This document shows, in pieces, positions 24,831 through 49,085 of a stretch of 64,000 nt of DNA. The notes beneath the pieces were generated by a model. It was not told where the DNA came from and did no database searches. It worked only from the letters and a program-made list of their open reading frames with translations. Source of the DNA: Rhyzopertha dominica (taxonomy: Eukaryota; Arthropoda; Insecta; Coleoptera; Bostrichidae); assembly GCA_025024175.1 (NCBI GenBank), contig QCXZ01000137.1, positions 76,322,680 through 76,386,679 on the forward strand. The letters are read 5' to 3'. The translations under genes were made by a program, and so were the position numbers. Position 1 is the first letter of the stretch, and the number at the start of each line of letters is the position of its first letter.

Positions 24831-27141
24831 ACTTCTTCTTTAGAAAACATTTAAAGATTTTGGAATGACAACCATGTCTTGCACTGAAACTGGTGTCGTT
24901 ATTTTTGGCAATTAACTCTTTACCAAATATATAAAATATAATATTCATAACTTCAAGACAAGCATAAATATATCAGTAACAAAAAAATATCGACAACCAG
25001 CAATCTGATATAACTAGAAAGGGTTTTTAAAAGAAGAGTTATTTTTCTTTGAATTTTTTTTCAATTTTAACTTATGACAGACCGATTGGCACTGAGTGAA
25101 TCACTCTGTATGAAATAAATATTGCGCTTTAAGACATTCAGTATTGCATAAATATATAAATGACGAGAATATTGGATATACTTCCAGCGTGTAAAATGCA
25201 ATCAAGAAGATGAATTATTTGCGGCATTAAATAAAATTTCTCGGAAGTTATTTCTTTTGTTTCAGGTCAAAATACTCATTTAGCATAATTCCGTAAAAAA
25301 AAACTCGCTTAGTTGCATGCTAGGTTTGTTTTTATTAGATTTGGGAAAATTGTTGTCACAGCGTTCCGCAGGATTAATGTATCTATTTATAGTAGCTTAC
25401 GTGAAAGTCTCATGATATATAACACCCAGTAATGATTTTTAAAGCGTTTGTTTAATGAAGCAGCAAATAAATGGGGTCAGTTCCTATTTCTTCTATCCCA
25501 AGTGATGCAATAAATCTGCGTCTGCGATCCTAGCGAATGGATTGATATAGTTTCAGTAGCGCGTTGTACCGATGATAACCAAAGGCTTCAAACGCACATT
25601 TGATTAAAATTCAGTTATTTTTGTGAAAAAAATAATGTGCCTGTATAAAATGCTTGAATTGGTATTTTACTCAGTCCCAGAAGTATTGAAATTTTAATTT
25701 TATTAGATAGTTCTGTTATTCTGTGTTATTATCAAAAGTGGAGCAAAGTCTTACTCAAGTCTTTATAAAATCACCGAAACTATTGAAGCATTTGTCATAA
25801 TTTGTGCCACCAACTCGGNCACGTACATTTTCTGGGGCTGTTTATTGGTACCAAAGCGTTATCTGCTTAATTATAAAGCAAAAGACATTTTTATATCTTT
25901 TGAGAATTAAAGGCATCTTTGGATGCACATTGCTTGGTCACCAAGGAAACGTTTTGTTGTAAAAAGAGTAAAAGCTTACTCAAGTTTTAATAATAGAATA
26001 TCTGTTTTTATGGAAAGAGATTTAAATTTTATAACCCATCGGAGGTTAAAAAGAAAACAGCCCTCGTACAGATTAGAGTGACAAAATGACAAGTAATTTT
26101 GAGTATTCAGTCTAAAAGCTTCTAAAACATTCCTCCCAACTTTCAGCTATAAGTGGTTTAGCTGCATAACAATTTAGTAAAATGAGCTGATGATTCTCAG
26201 AGGATAAATCCTTAAATAAGCGACCGTCTAGCATAAAGGTATAATCTTTTATTAAAAAACCTTTCGTGACTGACTCCATTGGGTTAACAACGACAAATAT
26301 GCAGTCGGAAAAGTGAGCTGTTGAAAATGGCAAGTCCTTGTACATGCTAAAATGCACTTTCACAAAATGCACCGCCACTCAGGCAGCCTTTGAAGCAGCA
26401 TTTGAGCGAACTATATCAAAGTCGCTGATGTGATAAAAGCGGCCAAGCCGCACACTGCAAAGATAAATTTTTATTTATTGTGGCGAGAAGTTCGCAAATT
26501 GCCGCCCAGTTGCACAAACCGTGTTACACAAATGCCCGCGCATTCAGAGCTTTTTCATTGTGCGGCATTTGCAGATTTTTTTTCGCCGTCCGGTGTACGT
26601 ATCAAGTCGTGTTCAGTTATATAAAATTACCGTGCAAGGTCGGTTACACAACCCCGGCGCTGCTAATATAAACAATGGCAGTTATTAACTTTTCCACCGG
26701 TTAAGCACAGTTTCTCATGCATGCAAGGCACATGAGGTGTTTAAGTTACAGCACTTTTCACGAGGTCTGCAGGAAACGCGGACGCAGTTCTTCTGTCTGG
26801 CTCGACCTTTTGAATTTTATTTTTAATAACTGTTACCGATAGTACCCCACAGCTGTTCGTGATGGTCGTATCATTTAATATGTAAATCGTGCATAGCGAA
26901 AACCGCCAATCAATATCGATAGTACAAACGATATTATTCGCGTTACTTTGGTGAAACGAATTATGCCCCCACTTCGTTTGGGTGGTTGTTCCAAGCTTTT
27001 TTAATGCATTTAAGTTTGATAATATACGAGTGGCCAATATGTATGGAATAAGCATATTNGTTTAAAGAAATAAAGATACTTTGTTGAGTTTAGATTTAGA
27101 TCCATTTCCGAGACTCGCATTGTTCGAACTTTTCATTAACG
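24831..27141. other. no recognised gene; one orphan frame
   Basis: AT-rich. The only frame with protein-like composition is 26112-26378 (minus, 88 residues, starting MAVHFVKVHFSMYKD and containing HFSDCIFVVVNPMESVTKG). I do not recognise it; it could be a decayed transposon or host fragment. The 104-residue minus frame at 26741-27055 has no motif. Confidence 0.4.
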
Positions 27142-27147
27142 TATGTC
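27142..27147. repeat. 6-bp target-site duplication, left copy (TATGTC)
   Basis: TATGTC immediately precedes the AGTAGACC terminus of the giant inverted-repeat element, and the same six bases follow the other terminus at 43077-43082. Confidence 0.85.
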
Positions 27148-27480
27148 AGTAGACCTCTGATGAGACAGCTGGACCAATTTGCATATTAGCCCACTCGAGC
27201 GTAATTAGCGATCAAAATTTTTTAATTTTTCGATTTTTTTTATGTGACGGGATGAGAAATATGATTTGAATTTGCATATTGATAAATAGTATCTTATTAG
27301 ATGCATTCATTTTCCCCGGATTAATGATTCAATATTGCTGCTATATTGAAAATAATACTTTTCGAGTTGTTTATTAAATTTTAGGGTACTAGTTTGAGAG
27401 ATCTGTATCACTCATTTGCATATTAGCCAGTAGGGGGCGTTTGAGGGCGCAAAATTACGCATTTGCATATTAGCCTAATC
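27148..27480 (+). promoter_or_regulatory. subterminal repeats with ATTTGCAT octamers (left end)
   Basis: The octamer ATTTGCAT occurs four times in one orientation: 27177, 27270, 27414 and 27461. Three copies extend to ATTTGCATATTAGCC. A longer module (octamer, then GTAATTAGCGATCAA, then TTTTTCGA and GGGATGAGAAATATGA) appears twice, starting at 27177 and 27461. The mirrored set lies at 42756-43047. Clustered subterminal repeats are common binding sites for transposases. The octamer also matches the POU-domain consensus, which may be coincidence. Confidence 0.6.
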
Positions 27481-27944
27481 AAGCATGTGTAATTAGCGAT
27501 CAATCAAAAATTAATTTTTCGACTTTTTGCAGAATGTGATGGGATGAGAAATATGACTTTAATTTACATGTTCATATAGTAATTAGAGAATTTATTAAGT
27601 GTCAATTATCTTTATTCGACTTTTTTGAATTTGGTAAGATGGAATGAGATGTGAAACTGTGATTGACATTTTGTATTTTATAGCAGCATGTTTCTGACTG
27701 AGGCTTTTACGCCCTAGGGAGATGGGATAATATCAGCGAAGGTGGGTTTTGCTGATGTGTAATTGATATGAAATGTTTATTTACTATTATCACATATTGC
27801 TATTGTATATGTATGCATGGCGATATGACCAATGTACTCTCCTATGTGTAAACCGTTGTTATGATGGTGGGGGTTGGTACCGCGGTCCACACTCTATATA
27901 TAGGCAACCCCCAGAACAGGGGTAGGCGGGATTTTTTTACTATG

Positions 27945-28015
27945 CCGAATGCTGGATTTGAACCGGGTACCTCCGGTATGGCAATGCAACACTTTATCGC
28001 TGGGCTAAACGCAAA
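27945..28015 (-). other. tRNA-like segment (left arm)
   Basis: Complement of the right-arm tRNA-like segment at 42209-42279: A-box-like TTAGCCCAGCGA and B-box GGTTCAAATCC at about the spacing of a tRNA. Acceptor and anticodon stems do not pair well, so it is a tRNA-derived relic or SINE head, not a functional tRNA. Confidence 0.5.
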
Positions 28016-28127
28016 CTTACCTGACGGCCGTTATTCTTGTGTATTTAAGAGTAGGGCCACTCATCAATTTATCATTTTTAAAATGAGATGGGGTAGTCGA
28101 TTAGGTAAAACTTACCGCTAAATCCGC

Positions 28128-28860
28128 AAAAATATCAAATAACGGTTGCAGCACGACTTAATTGAGCTAAATAACTGTCATTTCACAACCTAGGCTAATC
28201 CACAGCAGGTTTGCGATTTCTTAAAAAAAATGCACTAAATAAGAATCTAAAGCCACCAGCATGCAATGATTATCAGTTATCTGGAATAAGAATAAACAAA
28301 TTAATATTAAGAGTATTAATAGATTTGAACCGTGATTTTGTGGCAAAAACGTCAAATAACGGTTACAGCGCGACTTAATTGAGCTAAATAACTGTCATTT
28401 CACAACCTAGGCTAATCCACAGCAGGTTTGCGATTTCTTAAAAAAAATGCACTAAATAAGAATCTAAAGCCACCAGCATGCAATGATTATCAGTTATCTG
28501 GAATAAGAATAAACAAATTAATATTAAGAGTATTCATAGATATGAACCGTGATTTTGTGGCAAAAACATCAAATAACGTTTACAGCACGGCTTAATTGAG
28601 CTAAATAATTGTCATTTCACAACCTAGGCTAATCCACAGCAGGTTTACGATTTCTTCAAAATGCACTAGATAAGAAATTAAAGCCACCAGCATGCAATGA
28701 TTATCAGTTATCTGGAATGAGAATAAACAAATTAATACTAAGAGTATTCCTAGATTTGAACCGTGATTTTGTGGCAAAAACGTCAAATAACGGTTACAGC
28801 ACGACTTAATTGAGCTAAATAACTGTCATTTCACAACCTAGGCTAAACCACAGCAGGTTC
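28128..28860 (+). repeat. tandem repeat, about 215 bp x 3.4 (left arm)
   Basis: Units start at 28128, 28343, 28560 and 28774 (periods 215, 217, 214). Each opens with GCAAAAA-GTCAAATAACGG or close to it and includes TTTCACAACCTAGGCTAATC and CACCAGCATGCAATGATTAT. The last unit is cut off near 28860. Confidence 0.93.
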
Positions 28861-28925
28861 AGATAGCTAAGCAAAACGATGAATATAAGTTTAAAATTAC
28901 TAAACTAGCATAAATTTACGACTGT

Positions 28926-30330
28926 TAGTCAACTCTGTTTATATAAAAGAATGGATTTCAAGTGATTGAAGTTATTTTAGAATAAATGAAATACTTGCTA
29001 CTATGTCTATTGAGAGTCATAGAAGGAACAAGCTGAAGACCAAAACACACACGGTAAGAATGTGTTTAAGGCAGGTAAACTAATAAAAAACACTCTATAC
29101 TTCGTTGTATATCGTGATTTTCCTTTTTAACTAGTTTATGCATGCTGATTGTAATAAATAATGTTAAAATTGTCAGCTTTTTTTAACTAATTCTGTTCAT
29201 CAATAAGCATATATTTCTTGTAATTGTAATTAAATTGAAATAATATAATTAATTGACTTTTGTTTGTACTTTAATTAAATATAATTCGCATGTCAGTTAT
29301 CAATCTTGTAGGTTGAGAAGTTGCTTGTTACCGTCATCTATCATAGCATACAGGATATTTGATGTAATAAATAACAATCAGCTACATGCTACTAGACTAG
29401 CAAAAATCTATGATTTCCTAAAACCACCCTCGCACTCCATATGTCGTGAACGTAGTCAATTCTGTTTATATAAAAGAATGGATTTCAAGCGATTGAAGTA
29501 GAATTAGAATAAACGAAATTGTGTCTTCACATCATATGGAACGTTTTAAATATATAAAAAAAATTGGCGAGTTTTTTCATTATTTTTGCACTAGATTGCT
29601 TAAATTATGCCACTACATGTTTTTTTTCTCTAAAATGAGCAATACTCGTACGCTTAACTTGGCAAAAATACTTGCTACTGTGTATGTTGATAATCATAAA
29701 TGGAGCAAGCTGATGAAGCACGGTAAAAATGCGTTTAAGACAACTAGACTACTGAAAAATATACTGTGTCGTACTTCGTTGTATATCGTGAATTCCCCTT
29801 TTTATTAGTTTCTGCGTGTTAATTATATTAAATAATGTTAAAATTGCCTGCTTTTTCGTCTAAAAGCATATATTTCTTGCGATTGAAGTAATGTACTTGA
29901 ATGAGTATTGTTTGGACTTTAATAAATATAACTAGCATTTATTATATGTTGAGAAGTTGCTTATTACCGTCATCTATCATAGCATTTAGGGTAATTGACA
30001 AATAGAAAAATGACGCGATTTCCTTGATTATCTTCCTAACACTTGCTTATTTAAATTATGACGCAGCATACTTTTTGTCTAATTAGCAGTACATATGTCT
30101 CTAAATAATAACAAGAAGCAAATTGAGAGAGCAGAAGCAAACAGTCGATCAGGAACGATGAAAATGTGTTTAAAAGAACTAAACTACTCGAAAATCTACT
30201 TCATGATGTGTTATGAATAGTCTCATCAACTAGCAACCGGTATTGACATTGACTAGTGTTTGATTTTAATCAATTCTCTTTCTGTATTTTATGCTCATAT
30301 AGCATATAGAGCGCTTGACATGGATAAAAA
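28926..30330 (+). repeat. diverged tandem units of about 0.5-0.6 kb (left arm)
   Basis: The block starting GTCAACTCTGTTTATATAAA (28927) recurs from 29453. Shared internal landmarks are TACTTCGTTGTATATCGTGA and TTACCGTCATCTATCATAGC. A third, much weaker copy runs from about 30030. Indels make the period vary from about 530 to 630. Confidence 0.75.
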
Positions 30331-30421
30331 TATAACGAGATTACTTTGCCATTTTCCCTTACTTATATTGTTACATGTTTCTCTCTATAATATGCTATAC
30401 TTATACAGGTCTTAATGATGG

Positions 30422-30865
30422 TGGGAAAAATACATATTGCTATCATATTCATGTGATAATCTACAACAAACAAATTGATAACCCGAAACATTTGCTGAAT
30501 GAGCATTCTAAATGGTTTCGAACAAGATTATGACCATAACCAGCTGAATCGGTTGGTTGAAAGGCCGTAATCGAAGACACGGCGAGCTGTAGGGGTGAAA
30601 TGGTAGCAGATAATCGCTATAAGGCATTTGCTTTCTAAAGTAATGATTGTGGGAAAAATACATATTGCTATTACATTTATGTGATAAAAATGTTTGATAA
30701 TCTACAACAAACAAATTAAAAGCAGAAACGTTTGCCGAATAAGCATACCGATTGGTTTCGAACAAGATTATGACCATAATCAGCAGAATAGGTTGGTTGA
30801 AAGCCCGTAATCGAATACACAGCCAGCTCTAGGGGTGAAATGGTAGCAGATAATCGTTATAATAC
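30422..30865 (+). repeat. about 230-bp direct duplication (left arm)
   Basis: TGGGAAAAATACATATTGCT near 30422 recurs near 30652. Both copies continue through GATAATCTACAACAAACAAA and GGTTTCGAACAAGATTATGA to GGTGAAATGGTAGCAGATAA. Confidence 0.9.
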
Positions 30866-33786
30866 TCCTGTTTAGTACATAGTACACCTCAAATTCCTCC
30901 TATTACAGCTGGAAAAAGGTTGAAATGGTAAAGTTGTGGAGAAGTTAAGACCACTTGCGTTTTTGTTTGTTGAACATGGACTTGCATTGCTTATTCATGT
31001 AGGTTTCCGAATGCGTTATCTGATCAAAACAGTCTTATGGAAATTATGCTAATGATATAGATACTTAGAGGAAGTGAGTCGAACAAATTATAGGTAACGA
31101 GAAATATAAGGGATATTTGTCGAAAAGTATTCAAATCCGTTTATATATTATCATTAAACTTATATTTCCAATATCGAAAGTCTCCTAGTTAGCTCACATT
31201 CCAAGGGCGCATTAAACTTATTGTTTTAGACTGACATAAAAGCCTTAAATGTAGTATGTTGTTTGAACACAATTTTCTGCTATTGCTATTCAAGAACTTT
31301 AATTTGGTGAATTAACCTCCGATTAGGCAAAATAATAACTGTAATATATATTTCATAAGTATTATTCACACTTTAAAGTCGAATGAAATAAGAAATTAAT
31401 ATTTTATTTTCTTGAAACTACCGAACTGGCCAATATCGTGCCCGTTTAGTTTGTCATTCATTTCTACATAGTGGTAGCGGGAGCTATACGGGGAAGCTAA
31501 AGTATGTACGCACTGATATTTAAATATGCATACACACGAGCTTTACACAGGAGAAACATAAGACAACAAGTAGTTTTTTTGTTCTTTAGATAACTTTTCA
31601 TGCATTTTCTCCCTAAAACTTGCACATTTATGCATTATTTGTAAACCCAATGTATCCGTCACTGAACCCCATTGTAATAGTTAAAGCTAAAAAACGCTGT
31701 CAGTTACCTATTGTATGTCCAACAGCATTAATACTATTATGGTTCTAATATAGAATAAACAAAAATCAAATAACTACAATAATATATCGCAGATAATACT
31801 TTGATTTTTAGTGCAGATATTAATCAAATTATCACGTCTTTTGACCAATTAATGGAGATCACTTTAAAAATGTCTACATATTTATTACAGAAATGAACTT
31901 CTGACAAAAAAAGGGCACCATTAGCTATTTCAAAATCGATGAGCATGTATTACATGATCGAATGATGTTTTGTTCTTTAAAAGCCTCCAAATTTATGAAA
32001 CAGTAAATACATAAATCGACAAATTAGTGTCAAATAAGAAAAGGGATCAAGTACACCTATATAAAATACCAAGAATTTGAACAAAAGACGTAATTTTGCG
32101 AAAAAAATCATTGAAAATTGACAGGTAATTTTGTAAATTTATAGAAAATCGCATATTGTATGTGAAATGCGTAAATCGACAAAATTAAACCAATAAAAAG
32201 AGTGTAAATATGAGTAAAACTTGTTATTATGGTTAGTATATCCTACAGTTATTCAATTTCAGGATAACGTGTTTTATAAATATAAAAATGTTTACTATGG
32301 AAAGCATGCCTAAGGAAATTTTCCCCTTCACAGCCTATCGTACAGTATATCGCAGAGGAACCCATCTCACATTAGCCAAAATCAAACATAAATTACTTCT
32401 CCTTGTTACCGCCGTATACTACACATTGCCCTTAATGCACCAGAGAAGGCTGTCTTGTTATAATGTAATGATTTTAAATAAATCAAGATTAACGAAAATT
32501 CAGAAGCATAAATAAGTGAAATGTTCTTTTGACGAAGTTTATTGTCAAGATAAGTACACAAGAGCGTTGCCATTCTAATTACATGGACATGAAAGAGGCG
32601 ATTTGTTATTACCCTTAACCCATAACAGCAGATCTTAGACAAAAACAACTTGTCTCGAGCTAAAAAGGTTAGCTTTAATATATTCCGGAAAGATCAGTAC
32701 CTGCATGACTACTTACATTAGGTGTAAATGTGAACAATTCATTTAAAAATGTGGGCAAACTCGATCTGAACCTTTATGTTCTTGCTACGCAACGGTATAC
32801 TTTTTCAGTGACCTAGAAGCGTTATTGACATTTTTTTTGCAAATTAAGGCATTAAGGATTCCCATCTGAGACCTAGATTGACATAGCGACTTGCACTTTA
32901 TTAACCTTTAACTGCAGGTACAGGTGCATTTCATTCACTTAGGAAACTTCAGTGCTGCCTCTGATTGGTTATAATGTCAGATATTCATTGGTTCCCCTCA
33001 GTAGGAATGTATTAATCTTAATTAATTTTAGGTTAAATATTTATTTATTCAGTGTGTAACATTTTAAAGCCAGTCTTGCTGATGGATATTGTGCATATTA
33101 TGAAGTGTACGACGCACCTGAAAGATAAGAACAATCATGAATTAGGTAGTTAATTATCCGAAAACTCTAAAATTCTTAATTACCATGTAGTTTGTATAAG
33201 GTTATAACACTGCGTTCAGCACTTACCAGACTTTTTATTGGATAATATGGAATAGTTGCTAAAGAACTCAACTGCATCATATTATGACAATACTTTTTCT
33301 TTAAGGAATCTTAAAATAACTTAAACCATTTATTTTAAAGAGGAACTTGAGACGCTGCAAGATTAATATCACAACTCACCCCTGTTGTAGGTTTGTCCCA
33401 TTTTAACTTATATCCACGACGTGAAATTTGTTATCTAAGCGTTCCCTACAGGATAATCTTGTTAACAAAATAGTTTGCTAGTAATAGCATACGCCATCCT
33501 GAAATCATGTAAGACATCTTAACATAAGTACACCAATTTATACGCTATTGTTAACTTGTAGGTAGTATTTTTGCAATCATAACTTAGTATTAATACCCTG
33601 TGAAGCAAAACCGTTGCAAAAAAAATATTGATATATGTCATTATTATGCTAATTTACTGTTTCATTTTAGAATTTGTACTTATCAATGAGAAAATGTATA
33701 CCAATGTTCATGCTATTGAGCACTTGTAATTATCTACATATAATCTTTTTTTGCATTAACTTAGGAAATTATAAAAGCACAAATTT

Positions 33787-33790
33787 ATTA

Positions 33791-33836
<46 letters not shown>

Positions 33837-33840
33837 TATT
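33787..33840 (+). repeat. (TTA)n microsatellite (left arm)
   Basis: About 16 uninterrupted trinucleotide repeats. The mirrored tract in the right arm (36396-36444) differs by one unit, so the arms are not perfect copies here. Confidence 0.95.
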
Positions 33841-34591
33841 ATTCTGCCATTGCAAATATTTAAAAATAGGTACTTACCACAAAAGAAGTGTAGTTTATAT
33901 TCAACAAATTACGTGTACCTCCAACAACTACACCAAAATAATAATACTTTACTACGGTTAAGCAGGTTAAAAAGGAATAGCTCATCGAAAATTTTAGACT
34001 TAATATGAAAAATATTCATAATTGTTATGAGATTGGAGTAATTTTATAGAAAGAGAACCACAACCCTCCGATATTGGAGTTTAAATTCCACGAGGCATGG
34101 CGAATACGTGAAGAATACGTTATGTAGGCTTCTTATGACTGTCAAAGCTTTACCTACCTACTTTACCTACAAGTATGAACATGATCACCATCGTTTTATA
34201 GCCAACTAGTCAAATATATTGAGATATCTCACACTTCCCTTGATAGGTAAATTTTATTATATTACATAATATTCCTATTACGTCATTAAAAACGATGTTA
34301 AATTATTTTAGAACTGCTTTGAGATTTGATGTTTTTCTTTCTATAAAGCATGACAGCAACACATAGAATGATTTAATACACATAGAAAGTGAAATATTTG
34401 GAAGAATTTTTTTGTAGTAGCCATTATTCTGATACCTATCCACATCTTAACCCACACCCCCTCATGCACAGAACTGGAGCTGTACGAATCGAAAATTTTG
34501 ATACGAAACCGTTTTTTATACGTGGAACGCATTTTTTTAATAAACCTGTTTTAGAAGATACATAGTAGGCAGCGCATATCTTTACAAAACT

Positions 34592-35542
34592 TCTTTTATA
34601 CTTCTGGTTAGATTTAAGCAAGCCGCATTTGATGTGATCCCCAGGGAAGCAAGCATGCATTCAGCAATTTGTATAAAGATGATGATCGATTTAAATATAT
34701 ATTTTTTATGTGAAAACACAGAGAGGAAAGTTGAATTTTACCTTGAAATAATACATAAAAGTATTGCTTAAATGTCATAGCCTGCTACATAAATATGTGG
34801 GATTTACTGAGTAAACTACTGTACAGTACTGCAGTGCGTGAATCCCAAGATCTATTTCCTCAATATTTCCAATCATCAATGCATATTTCTTTATATGATT
34901 TTTTCTGTTCTCCTTTTTTTCTGTGATGTCAGTAATACGCCCTAAAAAGTATGATAATCGCCACTTTTCTTGCAAAATTGAATCGATTTATACACATATC
35001 GAACATTTAACTGGAATTTATACCATACTGAAATATTTTTATAATCAACAAATTGTTTATATTCGACGGTAGTTTACATGCTCATACCATTTCTCTTTAG
35101 CTTCAAATACAGTTTTTTTAATACGTATAGCATAAGAACATAGAAGTTGCAGTGTATCATCCATCATTCATTAAACTTGTAACGAAATCGATGCTGTAGC
35201 CGTACTAAATGAAATAAGATCAGTTTTCGAAAGAGAAAGAAACCATTCGAGATTAGTCAAAAACAGTGCCACTTTTCTTCAACTATGAGATACTCAGCGA
35301 AAATATGAAATGCACATTTGTTTAGGTATATACAACACAGCTTCTGGGTAATTAAGAATTTTCTTAATATCAAAGCAATTTGTTTGAAAAACACGGTTAA
35401 TATCGTAAGGAGTTAAATTACTATCTATCACACTATTTCTTTTTTCAAATCTTGAGATACTTATTCATTTATATAACTACATCTATAGCTAATGACAACT
35501 TTTTAAACTAAATCACTTCCAATGAACAACAACTGTGAGAAA
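34592..35542. other. loop of the giant inverted repeat (unique sequence)
   Basis: 951 bases with no counterpart in the right arm as assembled. AT-rich; the short frames show no motif. Because the right arm begins directly at the gap edge, this could be true loop or further arm whose mate lies in the gap. Confidence 0.7.
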
Positions 35543-35642
35543 NNNNNNNNNNNNNNNNNNNNNNNNNNNNNNNNNNNNNNNNNNNNNNNNNNNNNNNNNN
35601 NNNNNNNNNNNNNNNNNNNNNNNNNNNNNNNNNNNNNNNNNN
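35543..35642. other. assembly gap, exactly 100 N
   Basis: A run of exactly 100 N, a conventional placeholder for a gap of unknown size. It falls at the centre of the palindrome, where assemblers commonly fail. Confidence 0.97.
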
Positions 35643-36394
35643 AGTTTTGTAAAGATATGCGCTGCCTACTATGTATCTTCTAAAACAGGTTTTTATTTAA
35701 AAAATGCGTTCCACGTATAAAAAACGGTTCGTATCAAAATTTTCGATTCGTACAGCTCCAGTTCTGTGCATGAGGGGTGTGGGTTAAGATGTGGATAGGT
35801 ATCAGAATAATGGCTACTACAAAAAAATTCTTCAAATATTTCACTTTCTATGTGTATTAAATATTCTATGTGTTGCTGTCATGCTTTATAGAAAGAAAAA
35901 CATCAAATCTCAAAGCAGTTCTAAAATAATTTAACATCGTTTTAATGACGTAATAGGAATATTATGTAATATAATAAAATTTACCTATCAAGGGAAGTGT
36001 GAGATATCTCAATATATTGACTAGTTGGCTATAAACGATGGTGATCATGTTCATACTTGTAGGTAAAGTAGGTAGGTAAAGCTTTGACAGTCATAAGAAG
36101 CCTACATAACGTATTCTTCACGTATTCGCCATGCCTCGTGGAATTTAAACTCCAATATCGGAGGGTTTGTGGTTCTCTTTCTATAAAATTACTCCAATCT
36201 CATAACAATTATGAATATTTTTTCATATTAAGTTCTAAATTTTCGATGAGCTATTCCTTTTTAACCTGCTTAACCGTAGTAAAGTATTATTATTTTGGTG
36301 TAGTTGTTGGAGGTACACGTAATTTGTTGAATATAAACTACACTTCTTTTGTGGTAAGTACCTATTTTTAAATATTTGCAATGGCAGAATAATA

Positions 36395-36443
<49 letters not shown>

Positions 36444-39400
36444 TAATAAATTTGTGCTTTTATAATTTCCTAAGTTAATGCAAAAAAGATTATATGTAAG
36501 ATAATTACAAGTGCTCAATAGCATGAACATTGGTATACATTTTCTCATTGATAAGTACAAATTCTAAAATGAAACAGTAAATTAGCATAATAATGACATA
36601 TATCAATATTTTTTTTGCAACGGTTTTGCTTCACAGGGTATTAATACTTAAGTTATGATTGCAAAATACTACCTACAAGTTAACAATAGCGTATAAATTG
36701 GTGTACTTATGTTAAGATGTCTTACATGATTTCAGGATGGCGTATGCTATTACTAGCAAACTATTTTGTTAACAAGATTATCCTGTAGGGAACGCTTAGA
36801 TAACAAATTTCACGTCGTGGATATAAGTTAAAATGGGACAAACCTACAACAGGGGTGAGTTGTTGATATTAATCTTGCAGCGTCTCAAGTTCCTCTTTAA
36901 AATAAATGGTTTAAGTTATTTTAAGATTCCTTAAAGAAAAAGTATTGTCATAATATGATGCAGTTGAGTTCTTTAGCAACTATTCCATATTATCCAATAA
37001 AAAGTCTGGTAAGTGCTGAACGCAGTGTTATAACCTTATACAAACTACATGGTAATTAAGAATTTTAGAGTTTCGGATAATTAACTACCTAATTCATGAT
37101 TGTTCTTATCTTTCAGGTGCGTCGTACACTTCATAATATGCACAATATCATCAGCAAGACTGGCTTTAAAATGTTACACACTGAATAAATAATATTTAAC
37201 CTAAAATTATTAAGATTAATACATTCCTACTGAGGGAACCAATGATATCTGACATTATAACCAATCAGAGGCAGCACTGAATTTCCTAAGTGAATGAAAT
37301 GCACCTGTACCTGCAGTTAAAGGTTAATAAAGTGCAAGTCGCTATGTCAATCTAGGTCTCAGATGGGAATCCTTAATGCCTTAATTTGCAAAAAAAATGT
37401 CAATAACGCTTCTAGGTCACTGAAAAAGTATACCGTTGCGTAGCAAGAACATAAAGGTTCAGATCGAGTTTGCCCACATTTTTAAATGAATTGTTCACAT
37501 TTACACCTAATGTAAGTAGTCATGCAGGTACTGATCTTTCCGGAATATATTAAAGCTAACCTTTTTAGCTCGAGACAAGTTGTTTTTGTCTAAGATCTGC
37601 TGTTATGGGTTAAGGGTAATAACAAATCGCCTCTTTCATGTCCATGTAATTAGAATGGCAACGCTCTTGTGTACTTATCTTGACAATAAACTTCGTCAAA
37701 AGAACATTTCACTTATTTATGCTTCTGAATTTTCGTTAATCTTGATTTATTTAAAATCATTACATTATAACAAGACAGCCTTCTCTGGTGCATTAAGGGC
37801 AATGTGTAGTATACGGAGGTAACAAGGAGAAGTAATTTATGTTTGATTTTGGCTAATGTGAGATGGGTTCCTCTGCGATATACTGTACGATAGGCTGTGA
37901 AGGGGAAAATTTCCTTAGGCATGCTTTCCATAGTAAACATTTTTATATTTATAAAACACGTTATCCTGAAATTGAATAACTGTAGGATATACTAACCATA
38001 ATAACAAGTTTTACTCATATTTACACTCTTTTTATTGGTTTAATTTTGTCGATTTACGCATTTCACATACAATATGCGATTTTCTATAAATTTACAAAAT
38101 TACCTGTCAATTTTCAATGATTTTTTTCGCAAAATTACGTCTTTTGTTCAAATTCTTGGTATTTTATATAGGTGTACTTGATCCCTTTTCTTATTTGACA
38201 CTAATTTGTCGATTTATGTATTTACTGTTTCATAAATTTGGAGGCTTTTAAAGAACAAAACATCATTCGATCATGTAATACATGCTCATCGATTTTGAAA
38301 TAGCTAATGGTGCCCTTTTTTTGTCAGAAGTTCATTTCTGTAATAAATATGTAGACATTTTTAAAGTGATCTCCATTAATTGGTCAAAAGACGTGATAAT
38401 TTGATTAATATCTGCACTAAAAATCAAAGTATTATCTGCGATATATTATTGTAGTTATTTGATTTTTGTTTATTCTATATTAGAACCATAATAGTATTAA
38501 TGCTGTTGGACATACAATAGGTAACTGACAGCGTTTTTTAGCTTTAACTATTACAATGGGGTTCAGTGACGGATACATTGGGTTTACAAATAATGCATAA
38601 ATGTGCAAGTTTTAGGGAGAAAATGCATGAAAAGTTATCTAAAGAACAAAAAACTACTTGTTGTCTTATGTTTCTCCTGTGTAAAGCTCGTGTGTATGCA
38701 TATTTAAATATCAGTGCGTACATACTTTAGCTTCCCCGTAGCTCCCGCTACCACTATGTAGAAATGAATGACAAACTAAACGGGCACGATATTGGCCAGT
38801 TCGGTAGTTTCAAGAAAATAAAATATTAATTTCTTATTTCATTCGACTTTAAAGTGTGAATAATACTTATGAAATATATATTACAGTTATTATTTTGCCT
38901 AATCGGAGGTTAATTCACCAAATTAAAGTTCTTGAATAGCAATAGCAGAAAATTGTGTTCAAACAACATACTACATTTAAGGCTTTTATGTCAGTCTAAA
39001 ACAATAAGTTTAATGCGCCCTTGGAATGTGAGCTAACTAGGAGACTTTCGATATTGGAAATATAAGTTTAATGATAATATATAAACGGATTTGAATACTT
39101 TTCGACAAATATCCCTTATATTTCTCGTTACCTATAATTTGTTCGACTCACTTCCTCTAAGTATCTATATCATTAGCATAATTTCCATAAGACTGTTTTG
39201 ATCAGATAACGCATTCGGAAACCTACATGAATAAGCAATGCAAGTCCATGTTCAACAAACAAAAACGCAAGTGGTCTTAACTTCTCCACAACTTTACCAT
39301 TTCAACCTTTTTCCAGCTGTAATAGGAGGAATTTGAGGTGTACTATGTACTAAACAGGAGTATTATAACGATTATCTGCTACCATTTCACCCCTAGAGCT

Positions 39401-42400
39401 GGCTGTGTATTCGATTACGGGCTTTCAACCAACCTATTCTGCTGATTATGGTCATAATCTTGTTCGAAACCAATCGGTATGCTTATTCGGCAAACGTTTC
39501 TGCTTTTAATTTGTTTGTTGTAGATTATCAAACATTTTTATCACATAAATGTAATAGCAATATGTATTTTTCCCACAATCATTACTTTAGAAAGCAAATG
39601 CCTTATAGCGATTATCTGCTACCATTTCACCCCTACAGCTCGCCGTGTCTTCGATTACGGCCTTTCAACCAACCGATTCAGCTGGTTATGGTCATAATCT
39701 TGTTCGAAACCATTTAGAATGCTCATTCAGCAAATGTTTCGGGTTATCAATTTGTTTGTTGTAGATTATCACATGAATATGATAGCAATATGTATTTTTC
39801 CCACCATCATTAAGACCTGTATAAGTATAGCATATTATAGAGAGAAACATGTAACAATATAAGTAAGGGAAAATGGCAAAGTAATCTCGTTATATTTTTA
39901 TCCATGTCAAGCGCTCTATATGCTATATGAGCATAAAATACAGAAAGAGAATTGATTAAAATCAAACACTAGTCAATGTCAATACCGGTTGCTAGTTGAT
40001 GAGACTATTCATAACACATCATGAAGTAGATTTTCGAGTAGTTTAGTTCTTTTAAACACATTTTCATCGTTCCTGATCGACTGTTTGCTTCTGCTCTCTC
40101 AATTTGCTTCTTGTTATTATTTAGAGACATATGTACTGCTAATTAGACAAAAAGTATGCTGCGTCATAATTTAAATAAGCAAGTGTTAGGAAGATAATCA
40201 AGGAAATCGCGTCATTTTTCTATTTGTCAATTACCCTAAATGCTATGATAGATGACGGTAATAAGCAACTTCTCAACATATAATAAATGCTAGTTATATT
40301 TATTAAAGTCCAAACAATACTCATTCAAGTACATTACTTCAATCGCAAGAAATATATGCTTTTAGACGAAAAAGCAGGCAATTTTAACATTATTTAATAT
40401 AATTAACACGCAGAAACTAATAAAAAGGGGAATTCACGATATACAACGAAGTACGACACAGTATATTTTCAGTAGTCTAGTTGTCTTAAACGCATTTTTA
40501 CCGTGCTTCATCAGCTTGCTCCATTTATGATTATCAACATACACAGTAGCAAGTATTTTTGCCAAGTTAAGCGTACGAGTATTGCTCATTTTAGAGAAAA
40601 AAAACATGTAGTGGCATAATTTAAGCAATCTAGTGCAAAAATAATGAAAAAACTCGCCAATTTTTTTTATATATTTAAAACGTTCCATATGATGTGAAGA
40701 CACAATTTCGTTTATTCTAATTCTACTTCAATCGCTTGAAATCCATTCTTTTATATAAACAGAATTGACTACGTTCACGACATATGGAGTGCGAGGGTGG
40801 TTTTAGGAAATCATAGATTTTTGCTAGTCTAGTAGCATGTAGCTGATTGTTATTTATTACATCAAATATCCTGTATGCTATGATAGATGACGGTAACAAG
40901 CAACTTCTCAACCTACAAGATTGATAACTGACATGCGAATTATATTTAATTAAAGTACAAACAAAAGTCAATTAATTATATTATTTCAATTTAATTACAA
41001 TTACAAGAAATATATGCTTATTGATGAACAGAATTAGTTAAAAAAAGCTGACAATTTTAACATTATTTATTACAATCAGCATGCATAAACTAGTTAAAAA
41101 GGAAAATCACGATATACAACGAAGTATAGAGTGTTTTTTATTAGTTTACCTGCCTTAAACACATTCTTACCGTGTGTGTTTTGGTCTTCAGCTTGTTCCT
41201 TCTATGACTCTCAATAGACATAGTAGCAAGTATTTCATTTATTCTAAAATAACTTCAATCACTTGAAATCCATTCTTTTATATAAACAGAGTTGACTAAC
41301 AGTCGTAAATTTATGCTAGTTTAGTAATTTTAAACTTATATTCATCGTTTTGCTTAGCTATCTGAACCTGCTGTGGTTTAGCCTAGGTTGTGAAATGACA
41401 GTTATTTAGCTCAATTAAGTCGTGCTGTAACCGTTATTTGACGTTTTTGCCACAAAATCACGGTTCAAATCTAGGAATACTCTTAGTATTAATTTGTTTA
41501 TTCTCATTCCAGATAACTGATAATCATTGCATGCTGGTGGCTTTAATTTCTTATCTAGTGCATTTTGAAGAAATCGTAAACCTGCTGTGGATTAGCCTAG
41601 GTTGTGAAATGACAATTATTTAGCTCAATTAAGCCGTGCTGTAAACGTTATTTGATGTTTTTGCCACAAAATCACGGTTCATATCTATGAATACTCTTAA
41701 TATTAATTTGTTTATTCTTATTCCAGATAACTGATAATCATTGCATGCTGGTGGCTTTAGATTCTTATTTAGTGCATTTTTTTTAAGAAATCGCAAACCT
41801 GCTGTGGATTAGCCTAGGTTGTGAAATGACAGTTATTTAGCTCAATTAAGTCGCGCTGTAACCGTTATTTGACGTTTTTGCCACAAAATCACGGTTCAAA
41901 TCTATTAATACTCTTAATATTAATTTGTTTATTCTTATTCCAGATAACTGATAATCATTGCATGCTGGTGGCTTTAGATTCTTATTTAGTGCATTTTTTT
42001 TAAGAAATCGCAAACCTGCTGTGGATTAGCCTAGGTTGTGAAATGACAGTTATTTAGCTCAATTAAGTCGTGCTGCAACCGTTATTTGATATTTTTGCGG
42101 ATTTAGCGGTAAGTTTTACCTAATCGACTACCCCATCTCATTTTAAAAATGATAAATTGATGAGTGGCCCTACTCTTAAATACACAAGAATAACGGCCGT
42201 CAGGTAAGTTTGCGTTTAGCCCAGCGATAAAGTGTTGCATTGCCATACCGGAGGTACCCGGTTCAAATCCAGCATTCGGCATAGTAAAAAAATCCCGCCT
42301 ACCCCTGTTCTGGGGGTTGCCTATATATAGAGTGTGGACCGCGGTACCAACCCCCACCATCATAACAACGGTTTACACATAGGAGAGTACATTGGTCATA

Positions 42401-43076
42401 TCGCCATGCATACATATACAATAGCAATATGTGATAATAGTAAATAAACATTTCATATCAATTACACATCAGCAAAACCCACCTTCGCTGATATTATCCC
42501 ATCTCCCTAGGGCGTAAAAGCCTCAGTCAGAAACATGCTGCTATAAAATACAAAATGTCAATCACAGTTTCACATCTCATTCCATCTTACCAAATTCAAA
42601 AAAGTCGAATAAAGATAATTGACACTTAATAAATTCTCTAATTACTATATGAACATGTAAATTAAAGTCATATTTCTCATCCCATCACATTCTGCAAAAA
42701 GTCGAAAAATTAATTTTTGATTGATCGCTAATTACACATGCTTGATTAGGCTAATATGCAAATGCGTAATTTTGCGCCCTCAAACGCCCCCTACTGGCTA
42801 ATATGCAAATGAGTGATACAGATCTCTCAAACTAGTACCCTAAAATTTAATAAACAACTCGAAAAGTATTATTTTCAATATAGCAGCAATATTGAATCAT
42901 TAATCCGGGGAAAATGAATGCATCTAATAAGATACTATTTATCAATATGCAAATTCAAATCATATTTCTCATCCCGTCACATAAAAAAAATCGAAAAATT
43001 AAAAAATTTTGATCGCTAATTACGCTCGAGTGGGCTAATATGCAAATTGGTCCAGCTGTCTCATCAGAGGTCTACT
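35643..43076 (-). repeat. right arm of giant inverted repeat
   Basis: Reverse complement of the left arm, starting at the gap edge and ending GAGGTCTACT at 43076. Small differences from the left arm include a G/T change near 37812 (against 32412), single-base indels near 35856 and 36500, and one (TTA) unit. The 215-bp tandem array mirrors at 41364-42096 and the octamers at 42756-43047. Confidence 0.9.
42209..42279 (+). other. tRNA-like segment (right arm)
   Basis: TTTAGCCCAGCGATAAAGTG starts at 42215 and GGTTCAAATCC lies at 42260-42270. A-box and B-box are spaced as in a tRNA, and the anticodon-loop position reads TTGCCAT (GCC, Gly-like). Stems are degenerate. It may be the pol III head of a SINE or a tRNA pseudogene captured by the element. 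Confidence 0.5.
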
Positions 43077-43082
43077 TATGTC
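43077..43082. repeat. 6-bp target-site duplication, right copy (TATGTC)
   Basis: Follows the ...GGTCTACT terminus directly. The same bases are the TA target plus the first four bases (TGTC) of the adjoining Tc1-like terminal repeat. Confidence 0.85.
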
Positions 43083-44133
43083 CCATTAGTTTTGGCACAA
43101 AATTCGGACTGAAAATTTTTAATTTGCACTCTACTTTCATCTATCTTATAAGCTAATTAGAGTAAGGCAAAAGGTCCGTCGTCCTCAACTACGCGGACAC
43201 GTCGTCGGGTGTTATCCATAATAAGGTTCTGGATACTGCAATGTCCATAGTGCGCAGCTTCTGTTCGAGTCTATGCCTAAGCTGATCCTTGCTTTAGGCT
43301 TCCCATCCTCCATCATACATTTGTCGTGAAAGAGTTGCCCAGAAATTCTCAATAGGTCGTGCCTGTGTGGTGGATTATCATTTTTGGGCACAAACCGAAT
43401 GTTGTGCTCGTAGAGCCACTGCTGTGTTCGTCCGGCGTAATGACAGGACGCTAAGTCTGGCCGGAAAATTACATGATGTTCATGATGAAATCCCTCAGTT
43501 TTGATAAGCAATAGCGAATATATCATTGACCATCCAGCGCATCTCCCCGAACCCGACCAATGTGAGAGCGAGAAATTCCTGCGGTAGAAATGGCACACCA
43601 GACCAGAATTTTGTCAACAAACTTTGCCTTCGTTTTGTGTCTTACATAATTTGGAACCTCTGCTGGGTTGTCGGTATAGAAACCATCGTTTCCCTTGATT
43701 TCTGAATTGCTCAGAGTGAAATATTTCTCGTCGTCCATCACAATGACTATGTTGTCCGCAAAATGGTATCGTCGCAAATTATGACAACAACTTGGTATTC
43801 TAGCCAGTTGGTTTGTCGTATATTTTGGACATTTCTGTCTTTTATGGTATTTCTGGCCATGACACCCTGCTGACAGCGCTCTTGGATACATGATATCTTC
43901 GTCCCCATTTTCTGACAGATGTTCCGACCGTGTTCCTCCTTCTTACTAAAAGTTGCTGCTCCCTGCGTGGAGTGAGACCGCTTTTTGGCGAGTTCAGACA
44001 TTGGATATTGGGCATTTGTCCAACTAAGTTATAGATACTTTTGCGGAGCTCTTTGTTTTCAAAGCACACTCGAAATTGCATCTCACGTTTCGTGTGTCAG
44101 CATCAAGAAATTTGTGCCAAAATTTATGGGACA
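43079..44133 (-). mobile_element. Tc1-like transposon with both terminal repeats
   Basis: Left end 43079: TGTCCCATTAGTTTTGGCAC. The complement of the right end (44133 downwards) reads TGTCCCATAAATTTTGGCAC, then CAAA. That is 23 of 26 bases matching, and each end is next to TA (43077-43078 and 44134-44135). The transposase lies between on the minus strand. Length is 1055 bp. The left TA and four terminal bases were duplicated when the giant element inserted. Confidence 0.85.
43212..44081 (-). pseudogene. Tc1-like transposase (about DD37E), multiply frameshifted
   Basis: Pieces in order on the minus strand: CFENKELRKSIYNLVGQMPN (N-terminus, 44081), KWGRRYHVSKSAVSRV (helix-turn-helix), KYTTNQLARIPSCCHNLRR, HFADNIVIVMDDEKYFTLS (first Asp), VDKILVWCAISTAGISR, then after frame breaks VIFRPDLASCHYA (second Asp) and IRFVPKNDNPP. 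After one more shift, QARPIENFWATLS gives the catalytic Glu near 43345. Counting residues and allowing for the shift, the second Asp to Glu spacing fits about 36-37, as in DD37E elements. At least four frameshifts or deletions make it dead. Confidence 0.85.
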
Positions 44134-44135
44134 TA

Positions 44136-47100
44136 TACCTTGCTTCGGTAAGGCTGGTGAGGTAAAATTTTTGTGCAAAGTGCAAGTGTAAAGAGCTTGT
44201 CTCTCTGAGCATGCAGAGAGATCAATATGCTAATCTTTTTTACAAAATTTTGTCAGCATGGCTAGACTTTGGAAACTATGTTAACTACTCTTGGAAAGCT
44301 GTATACTTCGTCAATGATTCGAGACTCTACGAATATTTTTATAAGTGCAATATTACTGAGATGTTGTCGCTTCAGAGGGAAATATGGGATAGCTAATTAG
44401 TGAGCGGCGTGGTCAAGATATGCAAAAATGAATAAATTATGAACATCAGCCATTGCAGTAATCGTGATACTGATATTTGGAAAACAGTTTTTACACCATT
44501 AAGTCGCACCATACATATTTTTGTAATTTACCGAAATAAATCGACAAACATAAAGTAGTAAACATAAGTAGTATAACGAAAGAACTGTGGAAAAGCTGTA
44601 TTAAGCATGTTATTGAAATTGAAAATAGCTATGTATTCCCAAATTTTCAAAATTTTATAATACATGTTAATGATGATGCTAGCAGTGATTCAGGATTGGA
44701 CAGTAGTGATGATTATAATAATTAATATATTTAAGTTATGTCGGTGTAAACTTGTTAGACTTTTTTGTAAAAATATAACAGATGTATGGAATTATTTCTT
44801 TTATTTAGAGCTTTAGATAAAAAAAGATATATTCTTATTATTTTCTTTTAAAATACTTGTCTTTTATTTACATATTTAGTTATGTTAACCGTTAACCGCA
44901 TGCACCAATAGTTAAAAGATTGTAAAAATATTAAAATGTAATGTATAGCACAGCATTCAACATATTCACAGGATATAAATATTACAGGAATGTTAAAAAT
45001 CAAAATAAAAATGCGAGATTTTTCTTTGCATATTAAAAAATGCTCAGATGTGCATGTTGTCTAGTTAGATTACCAATTTCATTATAACTAGATATGCTTT
45101 GCTTGTGCAAAATAATGTTGCTACTCATCTAAAACTACGCACAATTCATTCTGACACGTAAATAAAAACGATCGATGTAAAACCTCTTATTAACCGAATG
45201 ATTAAAAACTACTTAGAATAATAGACCCCTCGGTCGCGTGCCGTAAATAGTATTGCAGGGTTGTAAGAACGGTAAAAGAGTTGCATTACTATACCACAAA
45301 TTAATATGGAAGTACATATTGCTCTTATTTAATTAATAAATGTAAGCTGACCACTGTCATAGAAGTCTGCGAGACAAATTTAAAGAGCTAATGATGCACA
45401 TAAAAATAAATAAAATTTTGTTAACAAAAAATTTCCTTTGACTGAAATTTGATACTTTGAATCGGTTAGTACACAGGGAAAGCTAATCTAATCGCGCCAA
45501 TTATAATTATCCCACTATCTCCATAATTAAATAAAGTGTTATATAGCGGTAGTTCCAACTTCTGGTTAGACTATCAATGCTGATGTGCAATTTGCTATCA
45601 CTGGTTTATAAGAATTGTGCTTAGCTGTAATTAACCGTAGTAGCGATTATAAGGATTTCCAGAGATAAGTTTGGAAAACTAAAATATTACAGAAAAGTGT
45701 TAAATATAGGAATATTGCAAGAATAAGAATCCGTACTCTCGGCAAATATCGCTAAGGTATTTACGTATTATAAGCGATAACTTTTTTTAAAAAGCGTTAT
45801 GCTTAAATGCTTCCTTAGTTTAAGAAATAGCTGGCCTTGACTGTTTGGGTATAATAACAGAATCTCATTTCCATAGCAATACATTTTGTTTTTTCAGAAG
45901 TGTTTCTAAAAGATTAATTCATATCAAACTTCCTATATAAAAGAAAATGTCAGCCGCAATAATAGGATATAGGCACTCGTACATGAGACTAAAAATTCAA
46001 TTTGATGGGAGTGTAATCCTTATCTATCTATCCTTATTATATGGTTCATCTGAAACATGAAGTAGAGTTACTAAGGAAATGCATTAAAGAATAAACAAAC
46101 AAGTCAGCTTTTTAGACTGTTTTTTAAGTCTTACTTTAATACACAAGCCAGCTGAAAGTAAGAAAAAGAAATGTGCACTCTAATTTTACTATAAAAGAGT
46201 GTCCATTTATATAAGTTTTCAACAGGTGATATATAATATAATCTGATAATAAAGTATTGACCGCATGTACCATGTAAATATTTCTAAAATCTGTACAACT
46301 ATACAATTTTAAACCTATTTGTTAAATTAATGTGCAATACAATATGTGTAGCTATCACCATGGCCATTTCTAATTATTACTAAATCAATTACGTTTTTAT
46401 AACTTTAAAATTGGAAGTAACATAAAAAGTGCTTGATGCAGCATAAATATTTAATTGCTGACGTATATTAGAAAATTACCGAAGTAGTGTCGAGACCTCC
46501 AATCTTTTTTTAATTAGGTTTGCAATGTAAGTGGCTGAACGGCAAGACATCATGTGTCACAGATGTAGTTAGTGATTGCTGATTGATACTTGTACTGCGA
46601 TTTAATTTTTACTTAACAAAGTAAACCAATTTTTTAGAATAGGTACAGCGCTATCCTACTGATTATCACTACTACTTCATTTTCGAATAATATTGATTTC
46701 TCGTTGAACTGCTCCCATTTTTTATGCTAGTCGAACGCAACCATGCTTTATGTGTGTCCATTCCAAACGAAACAGCTGATATAAAAATTTGCAAGGCCAT
46801 TAGCTGGCTATAACGTAACACGTTAATTAAATGCACCAAAGCCAACAAAGATACATACGTATATGTAAACTTTACAACGTACGTAATTATTAAAACGGGT
46901 TTCGGTATACCGGCAGTGTTAAAGTATGTGATTTCGTGTTTGTACGCGTGTTGCAACGATCTGGAATGCCAGTCCCAGGAAAGCACTATGGAATTAGAAA
47001 TCGAACGCGAATTGCACGATTTTAACGGATTGGAACAAATTCATGATATCATGCGCGTTGCACAAAAAGAAAAATTCTGGTTGCTTATGGTTGCAACCGT

Positions 47101-47639
47101 ATGTTGCGGAAAGTGAACCACAATGATGTATGTGACGTTTGTGGTTTTATGTGTTAACAGGACATTGGCTTCTACCAATATTGGCATAAAAAGTACTTCA
47201 ATCTGCAGCTGATTAAAAAGTATGTAATCAATAACATGTTGGTAGTCTGTCACTGTCCAACGGTAACATTACTTTTTAAATTTATAGAAGTTTCAGTAGT
47301 TATCAAGCATCTTCAGATGCATAAGGTACGCATAATAAAGTTATAACATCAAATTAAAGAAAATAAAACAATTTAATCACATATTATTAATTAGGCACAA
47401 TAAAATCACAATGAAGAACAATTATTTTTATCATTAAAATTAAAACTGCAATGATAATGATGATATAGTTGAAGCTGAATTAAACGTGTACCTTTCATTT
47501 ACAATCAAGTAAAGTAAATGATTTACAGTACAAGTGTGTTGAGGTTAGTTTCAATCGAGTTTTAGGTAACATACTGTTAATTGGTAGGCAAAGTGTATTC
47601 GAGAATTATGATATGGGTAATAACATGCCATCTAGTGGA
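44136..47639. other. no gene seen
   Basis: 3.5 kb of AT-rich DNA. Frames at 46672-46986 and 46916-47116 have no motif I recognise. No terminal repeats or RNA genes noticed. Confidence 0.45.
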
Positions 47640-49085
47640 TCTTAACGATATTATCCACCCGTTTCTTTATCCACCCGGAGAACGGTTTAACGTGTACTAA
47701 TTACAGACAATTTCTATTATATGCAACTTTAGCAAATTATTTGAGATACTCTTACATAACTATTTATATCATAATTTATCTAAGCATATTAGTGTACAGC
47801 AGCACGGCTTCATCAAGGCACGCTCTACTATCACCAATGTGGTTTGTTTTTCACAATTTGTCGCTGAAGCTTTGGATGGTCATTTGCAGGCCGATGTGAT
47901 TTATACGGACTTCTCCAAAGCGTTCGATAAGCTGGATCACAATATTTTGTTAAACAAACTTAATCGTTTCGGCATATCTGATGCTTTGATTGCTTTGTTC
48001 AAATCTTACCTCCACGATAGAGTTCAATACGTGGCATATAATGGATTCAAGTCCAGCGCATACAATGCTACATCTGGAGTGCCGCAAGGTTCTGTTTTAG
48101 GTCCTTTGTTTTTTATACTGTTTATTAATGACATAACCGACGTTATAGACGTCAACATTTTACTTTATGCGGATGACCTTAAACTTTACACTACCATACA
48201 TTCAAGCATCGATTGTTTTCGTTTAGAAAACAATCTTGACGTACTGAATAACTGGTGTAGATCTAACGGACTGCCTTTGAACATAGCTAAGTGCAACGTT
48301 CTATCGTTCACATTATAAATCTGTACCTATAATATATGACTACGGTCTTGAGGGTGTTTCTCTGTCTAGACCCGATACATTTAACGATCTTGACGTAACT
48401 TTCGACAGCAAGTTATCTTTTATTCCACACATTCATAAAATGTGTCTTAATGCTAGTAAAACATACGGTTTTATTTCACGTAACAGTCGCGATTTCTGTT
48501 ATAACACATTATAATTGCTTTTCTACTCATTTATTAGATCTAGATTGGAGTACGCAGCGGTTGTTTGGACCCCGTATTATATGCGACATACAAATTATAN
48601 TGAAAATGTTCAACGAAAATTTCTAAAACTACTAAGTTTTAAACTCGAGGGCGTCTTTCCCTTCCGAGGTGTTTGTCACACCGATCTGTTTGAGAAACAT
48701 GATATTTCGAGTCTTCAGACTAGAAGAGACCTTCACGCTTTGGTGCTTCTATTCAAAATTGTCAACAATTTACCTGATAGTGCCGAAATTTTGGGTTCTT
48801 TAAATTTTGTTGTACCTAGAGAATCTATCAGAACATCTCACACATTTTATCTGGCAACTGCCAGAACGAACATAAAAAAGCGTTCACCACTACATAACAT
48901 GTGTGTTCTATATAATTCCCGGTGTATAAATTTTGATCTTTTTGGTGGCAGCATCACTGCTTTAAAAGATATTTTTGTATGATTAGTTTTGTTTGTACGT
49001 TTTAATTAACTTTACCCTCCTGTTGTGTAGTTGGGTGCAAACCTGTATAACAGTGTAATTAAATAAATAACACCCAACCCTAGAA
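47640..49085 (+). pseudogene. non-LTR retrotransposon (same family as 1-1275), 5' truncated
   Basis: Starts inside the RT domain with NYRPISI-like sequence near 47700, then HISVQQHGFIKARSTITNV, DVIYTDFSKAFDKLDHNILL, SGVPQGSVLGPLFFILFIND and LLYADDLKLYT (catalytic Asp pair intact), and LPLNIAKCNVLSFT, with a stop at 48318. A frameshift separates the second half (48515-48982), which has SFIRSRLEYAAVVWTPYY, VQRKFLKLLSFKLEGVFPF and LQTRRDLHALVLLFKIVN. One ambiguous base lies at 48600. The 3' end has TTGGGTGCAAACCTGTATAA and AATAAATAA at 49030-49070. It is less decayed than the copy at 1-1275 and serves as its reference. Confidence 0.9.

Follow-up and report, generated by a model that had tools for sequence, protein, structure and literature searches.

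Here we describe a family of giant palindromic mobile elements in the genome of the beetle Rhyzopertha dominica, as represented by one copy, W, that lies within a 64,000-nt stretch of contig QCXZ01000137.1 (assembly GCA_025024175.1); this whole stretch is referred to as the window, and the features of W are given in window coordinates. W belongs to a family of giant palindromes in which arms of roughly 8-9 kb surround a short spacer; no gene is recognisable in W itself, and the mobility of the family is shown by 16 different 6-bp target duplications together with a pair of closely matching copies (W and A). We regard these palindromes, which join Polinton-type ends to an all-palindrome body, as probable non-autonomous derivatives of Polintons that are moved in trans by a Polinton integrase. 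To our knowledge non-autonomous Polinton families have been little described, and no mobile palindrome of this size was found in the literature searched, coverage of which was partial and included few subscription journals.

Mobility and palindromic structure of the family

When the terminal 300 bp of W were used to search the 479-Mb host genome, 84 matches were identified, many of them paired head-to-head; 40 of 119 candidates were scored, making the copy number a lower bound. Nine copies, A to I, were sampled nearly whole, and further members by their ends only. All 16 members with both ends read (W and 15 others) terminate in AGTAG...CTACT and are flanked by a perfect target duplication of exactly 6 bp, different in each; copy E, whose right end fell outside the first pieces, was missing from the initial 15-row table of duplications and was added later, also with 6 bp. 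Among these 16, L030 is not a palindrome: it is a relative of 4.4 kb whose terminal inverted repeats (TIRs) measure 777 bp. W differs from the right arm of A at only 4 positions in 3.15 kb, and their duplications are TATGTC and TGAGTG; with two nearly identical copies at different sites, the family has therefore moved recently. A reading made from the sequence alone had proposed that copies of the terminal 300 bp elsewhere, bearing different 6-bp duplications, would demonstrate mobility and that copies lacking such duplications would speak against it; further copies were indeed recovered, and none of the 16 members with both ends read lacks a duplication, each being different. For J, K and a neighbour at C136:76.28 Mb the ends alone were read, the last being a further member (C136:76275604-76296556; L031, L032) that lies some 26 kb upstream of the window and whose duplication is GATTTT, and M is interrupted by a gap.

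As assembled, W occupies 27148-43076 between copies of TATGTC at 27142..27147 and 43077..43082, with the terminal AGTAG at 27148..27152 (+) and its inverse CTACT at 43072..43076 (-). The right arm (35643..43076, -) is an inverted copy of the left-arm portion 27148..34591 (+), from which it is separated by just 2 substitutions and 28 indels in an alignment of 27148-34591 with 43076-35643. A 100-N assembly gap (35543..35642) lies within the palindrome, and 25 of the 28 indels occur in the inner 2.4 kb; because they crowd toward the gap, this inner cluster looks technical, as would be expected of unpolished contig ends. The inverted arms, sharp AG/CT ends and perfect TATGTC flanks reported in the sequence-only reading are confirmed, the ends and duplication being exact, and its 7.44-kb arm alignment holds, but that reading did not note the gap, and the figure is a lower bound for arm length, since the right contig stops within the arm. 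The left contig extends 950 bases past the aligned arm, and this extra sequence (34592..35542, +), whose partner is missing at the gap, aligns collinearly with copy A's arm (L009) and is thus arm rather than core; the centre of A lies a further 0.6 kb or so inward of 35542. W is therefore probably about 18 kb long, without a unique core, which supersedes the earlier length of 15.9 kb given that the gap hides arm sequence. A coding core in W was considered and ruled out, as these additional 950 nt match arm sequence in A.

The centre is resolved in six copies (A, B, E, F, H and I), each of which folds back around a spacer that is 61-135 bp long in A, B, F, H and I and 467 bp in E. All six are palindromic through the centre, which agrees with the earlier proposal that repeats make up nearly the whole element and places the family in the foldback structural class, where inverted repeats form most of the element. 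The spacers of B, F, H and I mostly match stretches within the A arms, the spacer of A itself duplicates part of an arm (window 29434-29540, 99%), and B and F carry one identical spacer stretch in opposite orientation. Such likeness and flipped orientation would fit tip deletions accompanied by flipping. Two apparently larger members were rejected: E as a 24-kb element reflects an apparent false duplication at a gap, and in M, considered as a 67-kb autonomous member, the arm meets a 100-N gap beyond which the sampled pieces share nothing with the arms. At C137:3325179-3392716 an apparent misplaced contig sits in a broken palindrome with the target duplication TCTAAC on both sides; palindromes of this kind may disturb scaffolding at other sites.

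Arms are far more alike within copies than between them. Within-copy identity is 99.87-100% in eight of nine copies (first 3 kb; B over 2,027 columns), between-copy identity over the first 3 kb ranges from 92.0 to 99.6%, and a tree from which E, L029, L030, L031/L032, J, K and M were left out pairs left with right arm in 8/9 cases. The exception is A, whose arms are 97.2% identical, with a divergent patch around a tandem array. We rejected the idea that A is a chimera of two lineages, as its left arm departs from W only at this patch (first 3.15 kb). Such within-copy identity is not expected if left and right ends evolve separately, as in ordinary transposons; it would be accounted for if every cycle included conversion or passage through a hairpin. 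The array itself consists of 217-bp units that start about 1 kb from either end of W, at 28126..28859 (+; 3.4 copies) in the left arm and 41365..42098 (-) in the right.

Probable kinship with Polintons and a proposed origin

A link to Polintons is provided by the subterminal motif TTTGCATATTAGCC, a possible recognition site, of which three exact copies (27178..27191, 27415..27428 and 27462..27475, all +) lie inside the first 328 bp of W. The genome contains 194 exact sites (95+99), compared with 2 (0+2) for the reversed control. Among 100 of these 194 places, examined for inverted pairs within 30 kb, 27 pairs were found, spanning 5.8-28 kb, and 11 of them enclose an integrase-like match, where random placement predicts 0.15 (Poisson 1e-17). 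The query was a 133-aa piece (L057:2224-2622, minus strand) that reads as a Polinton-type integrase; it gave at least 151 matches (150 of 205 candidates scored), which at ten or more loci, counted by eye, lie within about 1.1 kb of matches to PF03175. PolB occurs in two of the 27 pairs: C64:43056396-43074432 (18.0 kb) holds both an integrase-like match and a PF03175 DNA polymerase match, and in a twelfth gene-bearing pair, C44:1267749-1285695 (17.9 kb), lie the L055 pieces of PolB (PF03175-bearing homologues, E 1e-50), with no integrase-like match. At C44 the PolB pieces are followed by a RING-like gene (Pfam below cut-off) and then by a terminal repeat ending in CTACT; this right end, read in L048, is 88% like arm positions 11-238. 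Motif pairs thus bracket integrase-like and PolB sequence, and we conclude that coding Polintons and the palindromes share an end motif. Together with the 6-bp duplications and AGTAG ends, these pairs support the suggestion, made from the sequence alone beside that of a new type of element, of a non-autonomous, Polinton-derived giant foldback unit.

RING-finger-like genes (Pfam below curated cut-offs) stand beside the terminal repeat at two loci (L051 2905-3189, L048 1820-2284, L055 4675-5211), and L030 contains a remnant of such a gene. DNA_pol_B_2 matches were found at 64 genome places, often in long open frames (as long as 1301 aa); the genome contains several well-preserved Polinton-type lineages, some apparently lacking this motif.

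The arms of W themselves carry little trace of coding sequence. No Pfam family was detected at E 1 in the six frames of the W left arm (27148-35542), and the same method, as a positive control, finds RVT_1 in the flank at 43083-51477. W is therefore not an autonomous Polinton, and the earlier statement that no gene is visible stands. The longest open frame in the arm is 106 aa (shuffle P 0.31); frames of at least 80 aa number 7 against 2.6 expected (P 0.015), an excess that counts weakly against the complete absence of a coding trace. In copies A-I (20 pieces), where open frames were assessed by length only, two reach 130 aa, the first in an insertion in B and the second spanning the left end of G. 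Searches against PHROGs (three forward frames only) and Rfam (window 26000-44200) returned no matches, as did a search of viral contigs with two terminus patterns, a set from which records of the host's own genome may be excluded.

Several observations weigh against a Polinton origin. The random-placement null ignores the clustering and kinship of copies, and the label of the putative integrase draws on a reading of L057 and on proximity to PF03175. On contigs covered by the motif list, 13 of 79 integrase-like matches lie inside motif pairs; most therefore belong to lineages without the motif or with sites outside the list. Neither gene was found by the integrase-like and PolB searches in 15 of the 27 pairs, five of which are fetched members of the family (C, L029, K, E and H) with no integrase-like match. 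Integrase-bearing pairs were compared with the palindromes by the motif alone, and C44 is the one place where a whole terminus was compared. At C44, moreover, the right terminus is followed by GAGCTC, and the same hexamer occurs at the junction where PolB homology stops; this repeat would suit PolB as a target flank, although the bracketing motif pair argues otherwise. Fetched coding relatives share no DNA with the arms past the first few hundred bases, and around a PolB-bearing Polinton at C41:37.2 Mb, whose ends were not found, 9 kb on each side share nothing with the arms. Finally, AGTAG corresponds to five, not six, letters of (AGT)2, and a P-type transposase adjoins one related terminus.

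Fold-back copying at a terminus gives rise to symmetric defective genomes in protein-primed linear viruses. A linear Polinton-like replicon may likewise have had one end copied back on itself, yielding a palindrome. Its arms would be kept alike either by gene conversion or by mismatch repair after the DNA had snapped back into a hairpin, and asymmetric tip deletions would leave the short spacers. A Polinton integrase, perhaps with PolB replication, would then mobilise the palindromes in trans, which would explain both the 6-bp duplications and the AGT-type ends. A more specific version, to which we give somewhat less than even weight, is that a Polinton lineage makes symmetric palindromic genomes from one end, with arms of about 9 kb and no genes, in the manner of the defective-interfering genomes of protein-primed linear viruses, and that these are inserted by Polinton integrase, thrive as a non-autonomous family and have their arms re-equalised in each replication round. 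If true, the family would be evidence, from the genome, that Polintons pass through a stage of replication outside the chromosome. The within-copy arm identity points to a hairpin, conversion or replication step, so that extrachromosomal replication of Polintons can be put to the test in this family. Palindromes this large are unstable in most systems, and yet, despite this expected instability, several copies with matching ends are found, two of them nearly identical at different sites.

Alternative explanations and known systems

One alternative is that fold-back reads or misjoined contigs produced the inverted arms during assembly. Gaps of 100 N are present in eight of the ten whole copies (W, A, C, D, E, F, G and H), in M the arm meets a gap followed by unrelated sequence that looks like a misplaced contig, E contains the apparent false duplication mentioned above, and a fold-back read could also leave a short unpaired spacer at the turn. 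We nevertheless regard an artefact as very improbable: in 16/16 members AGTAG marks a sharp arm end and the flanking 6-bp duplications match, and B and I contain no N run anywhere. Mismatches between the arms of these two copies (9 over two aligned pieces totalling 7.95 kb in B, 21 in 7.95 kb in I) show that they are not copies of one read strand, a 0.96-kb insertion in B is confined to its left arm, and the identical spacer of B and F is oppositely oriented. Rolling-hairpin replication yields palindromic dimers, and a parvovirus-like Rep (HUH plus SF3 helicase) might accordingly make inverted dimers that another enzyme integrates. Less than 4 kb from a related terminus at C53, an open frame (L056 2468-3067, -; L050 3539-3898, -) matches a papillomavirus-helicase family (E 7e-7) and Parvo_NS1 (PF01057, E 3e-6), both above cut-off, whereas its HUH part is a reading, with a Pfam Rep family at E 0.012, below cut-off. 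The two copies at C53 share 112 bp of flank and look segmentally duplicated; two separate Rep-bearing insertions were accordingly rejected in favour of one insertion duplicated along with its flank, and the fetched C53 pieces hold no inverted partner end, all of which leaves replication by Rep an unlikely origin. A search with the C53 NS1-like protein recovered one homologue among 77 candidates.

Transposition by a P-superfamily transposase, as in Galileo, appears slightly less likely still. Beside a related terminus at C137:32.97 Mb we identified P-type domains (PF21789, E 1e-10, above cut-off; PF21788, E 0.009, below cut-off), and nearby a second P-type gene (PF21787, E 2.6e-30; P element transposase in PDB, E 5e-4); the long TIRs of Galileo are likewise repetitive, with internal tandem repeats of about 210 bp (PMC3573991). 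Among the loci read, however, a P-type gene by a terminus occurs at one rearranged locus whose left end was not found, although further such loci may exist; Galileo duplications in Drosophila willistoni are 7 or 8 bp (PMC4168063), as against exactly 6 in 16/16 here; and the integrase-like matches inside 11 of the 27 motif pairs also argue against a P-type enzyme. L053 3336-4397 encodes a P-superfamily transposase (PF21787), followed by what reads as a Tc1/mariner-like insertion. A comparably small chance attaches to an undescribed transposase class with 6-bp duplications moving the family, with integrase-bearing elements sharing a borrowed end. Comparison of those elements at the subterminal motif, and not over the whole terminus, leaves room for such borrowing, which would nonetheless be hard to reconcile with integrase-like matches in 11 of 27 pairs. 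Of described classes, Dada makes duplications of 6-7 bp but lacks TIRs and uses small RNA genes as its targets (PMC3706591); the family studied here has long TIRs and varied target sites, and the Rfam search around W (26000-44200) was empty.

The Polinton origin favoured here can be set against published elements. Vertebrate Mavericks, 12.7-24.6 kb long, have 6-bp duplications and ends of (AGT)2 or (AG)3; in intact copies the TIRs measure 46-1447 bp and the conserved genes number seven or eight (PMC8097293). The palindromes resemble Polintons/Mavericks in their 6-bp duplications, AGT-type ends (with a different sixth letter), TIRs and similar length, and in having motif-bracketed relatives with PolB and integrase-like sequence, with which the terminus is shared at the level of the motif and, at C44, over arm positions 11-238 (88%). 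They differ in being built of arms about 8-9 kb long; the own PolB, integrase, capsid and ATPase genes of an autonomous Polinton were not recognised in the W left arm.

Foldback elements offer a second set of parallels. Tetris of D. virilis is also non-autonomous, with no coding capacity and with long TIRs containing internal tandem repeats of about 220 bp, but its TIRs reach no more than 1,735 bp, it has a middle domain and 8-10 bp duplications, and it has been assigned to Mutator (PMC4079207). Galileo and the family described here have in common long TIRs with internal repeats, TIRs that are extended, and chimeric copies; Galileo differs in its P transposase, its 7-8 bp duplications (in D. 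willistoni) and the length of its TIRs, which reach about 1.26 kb in D. mojavensis and, in the second-longest D. willistoni copy, about 1.6 kb (PMC3573991, PMC4168063). Across the foldback elements compared, repeats are up to 1,735 bp and duplications 7-10 bp, the longest D. willistoni Galileo TIR excluded. Ginger is unlike the family in its TGTNR ends and 4-bp duplications (PMC2836005), as against AGTAG and 6 bp. Size and makeup separate the palindromes from Teratorn. The target of Teratorn is TTAA. It is a piggyBac-herpesvirus fusion of 41-182 kb (PMC6431247).

Surroundings of W in the window

Remnants of other mobile elements flank W. Open frames at 47701-48315 (+) and 48515-48979 (+) represent a non-LTR-type reverse transcriptase remnant, the first within the flank where RVT_1 was found (43083-51477) and the second by reading; among the matches listed for the first frame (120 of 7416) are homologues from insects and from other animals. 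Frames at 7296-8359 (-) and 43215-44096 (-) read as mariner-like and Tc1-like transposase remnants, respectively, the latter directly to the right of W. All 19 single-base Ns of the window fall outside W, perhaps because repeats were left unpolished.

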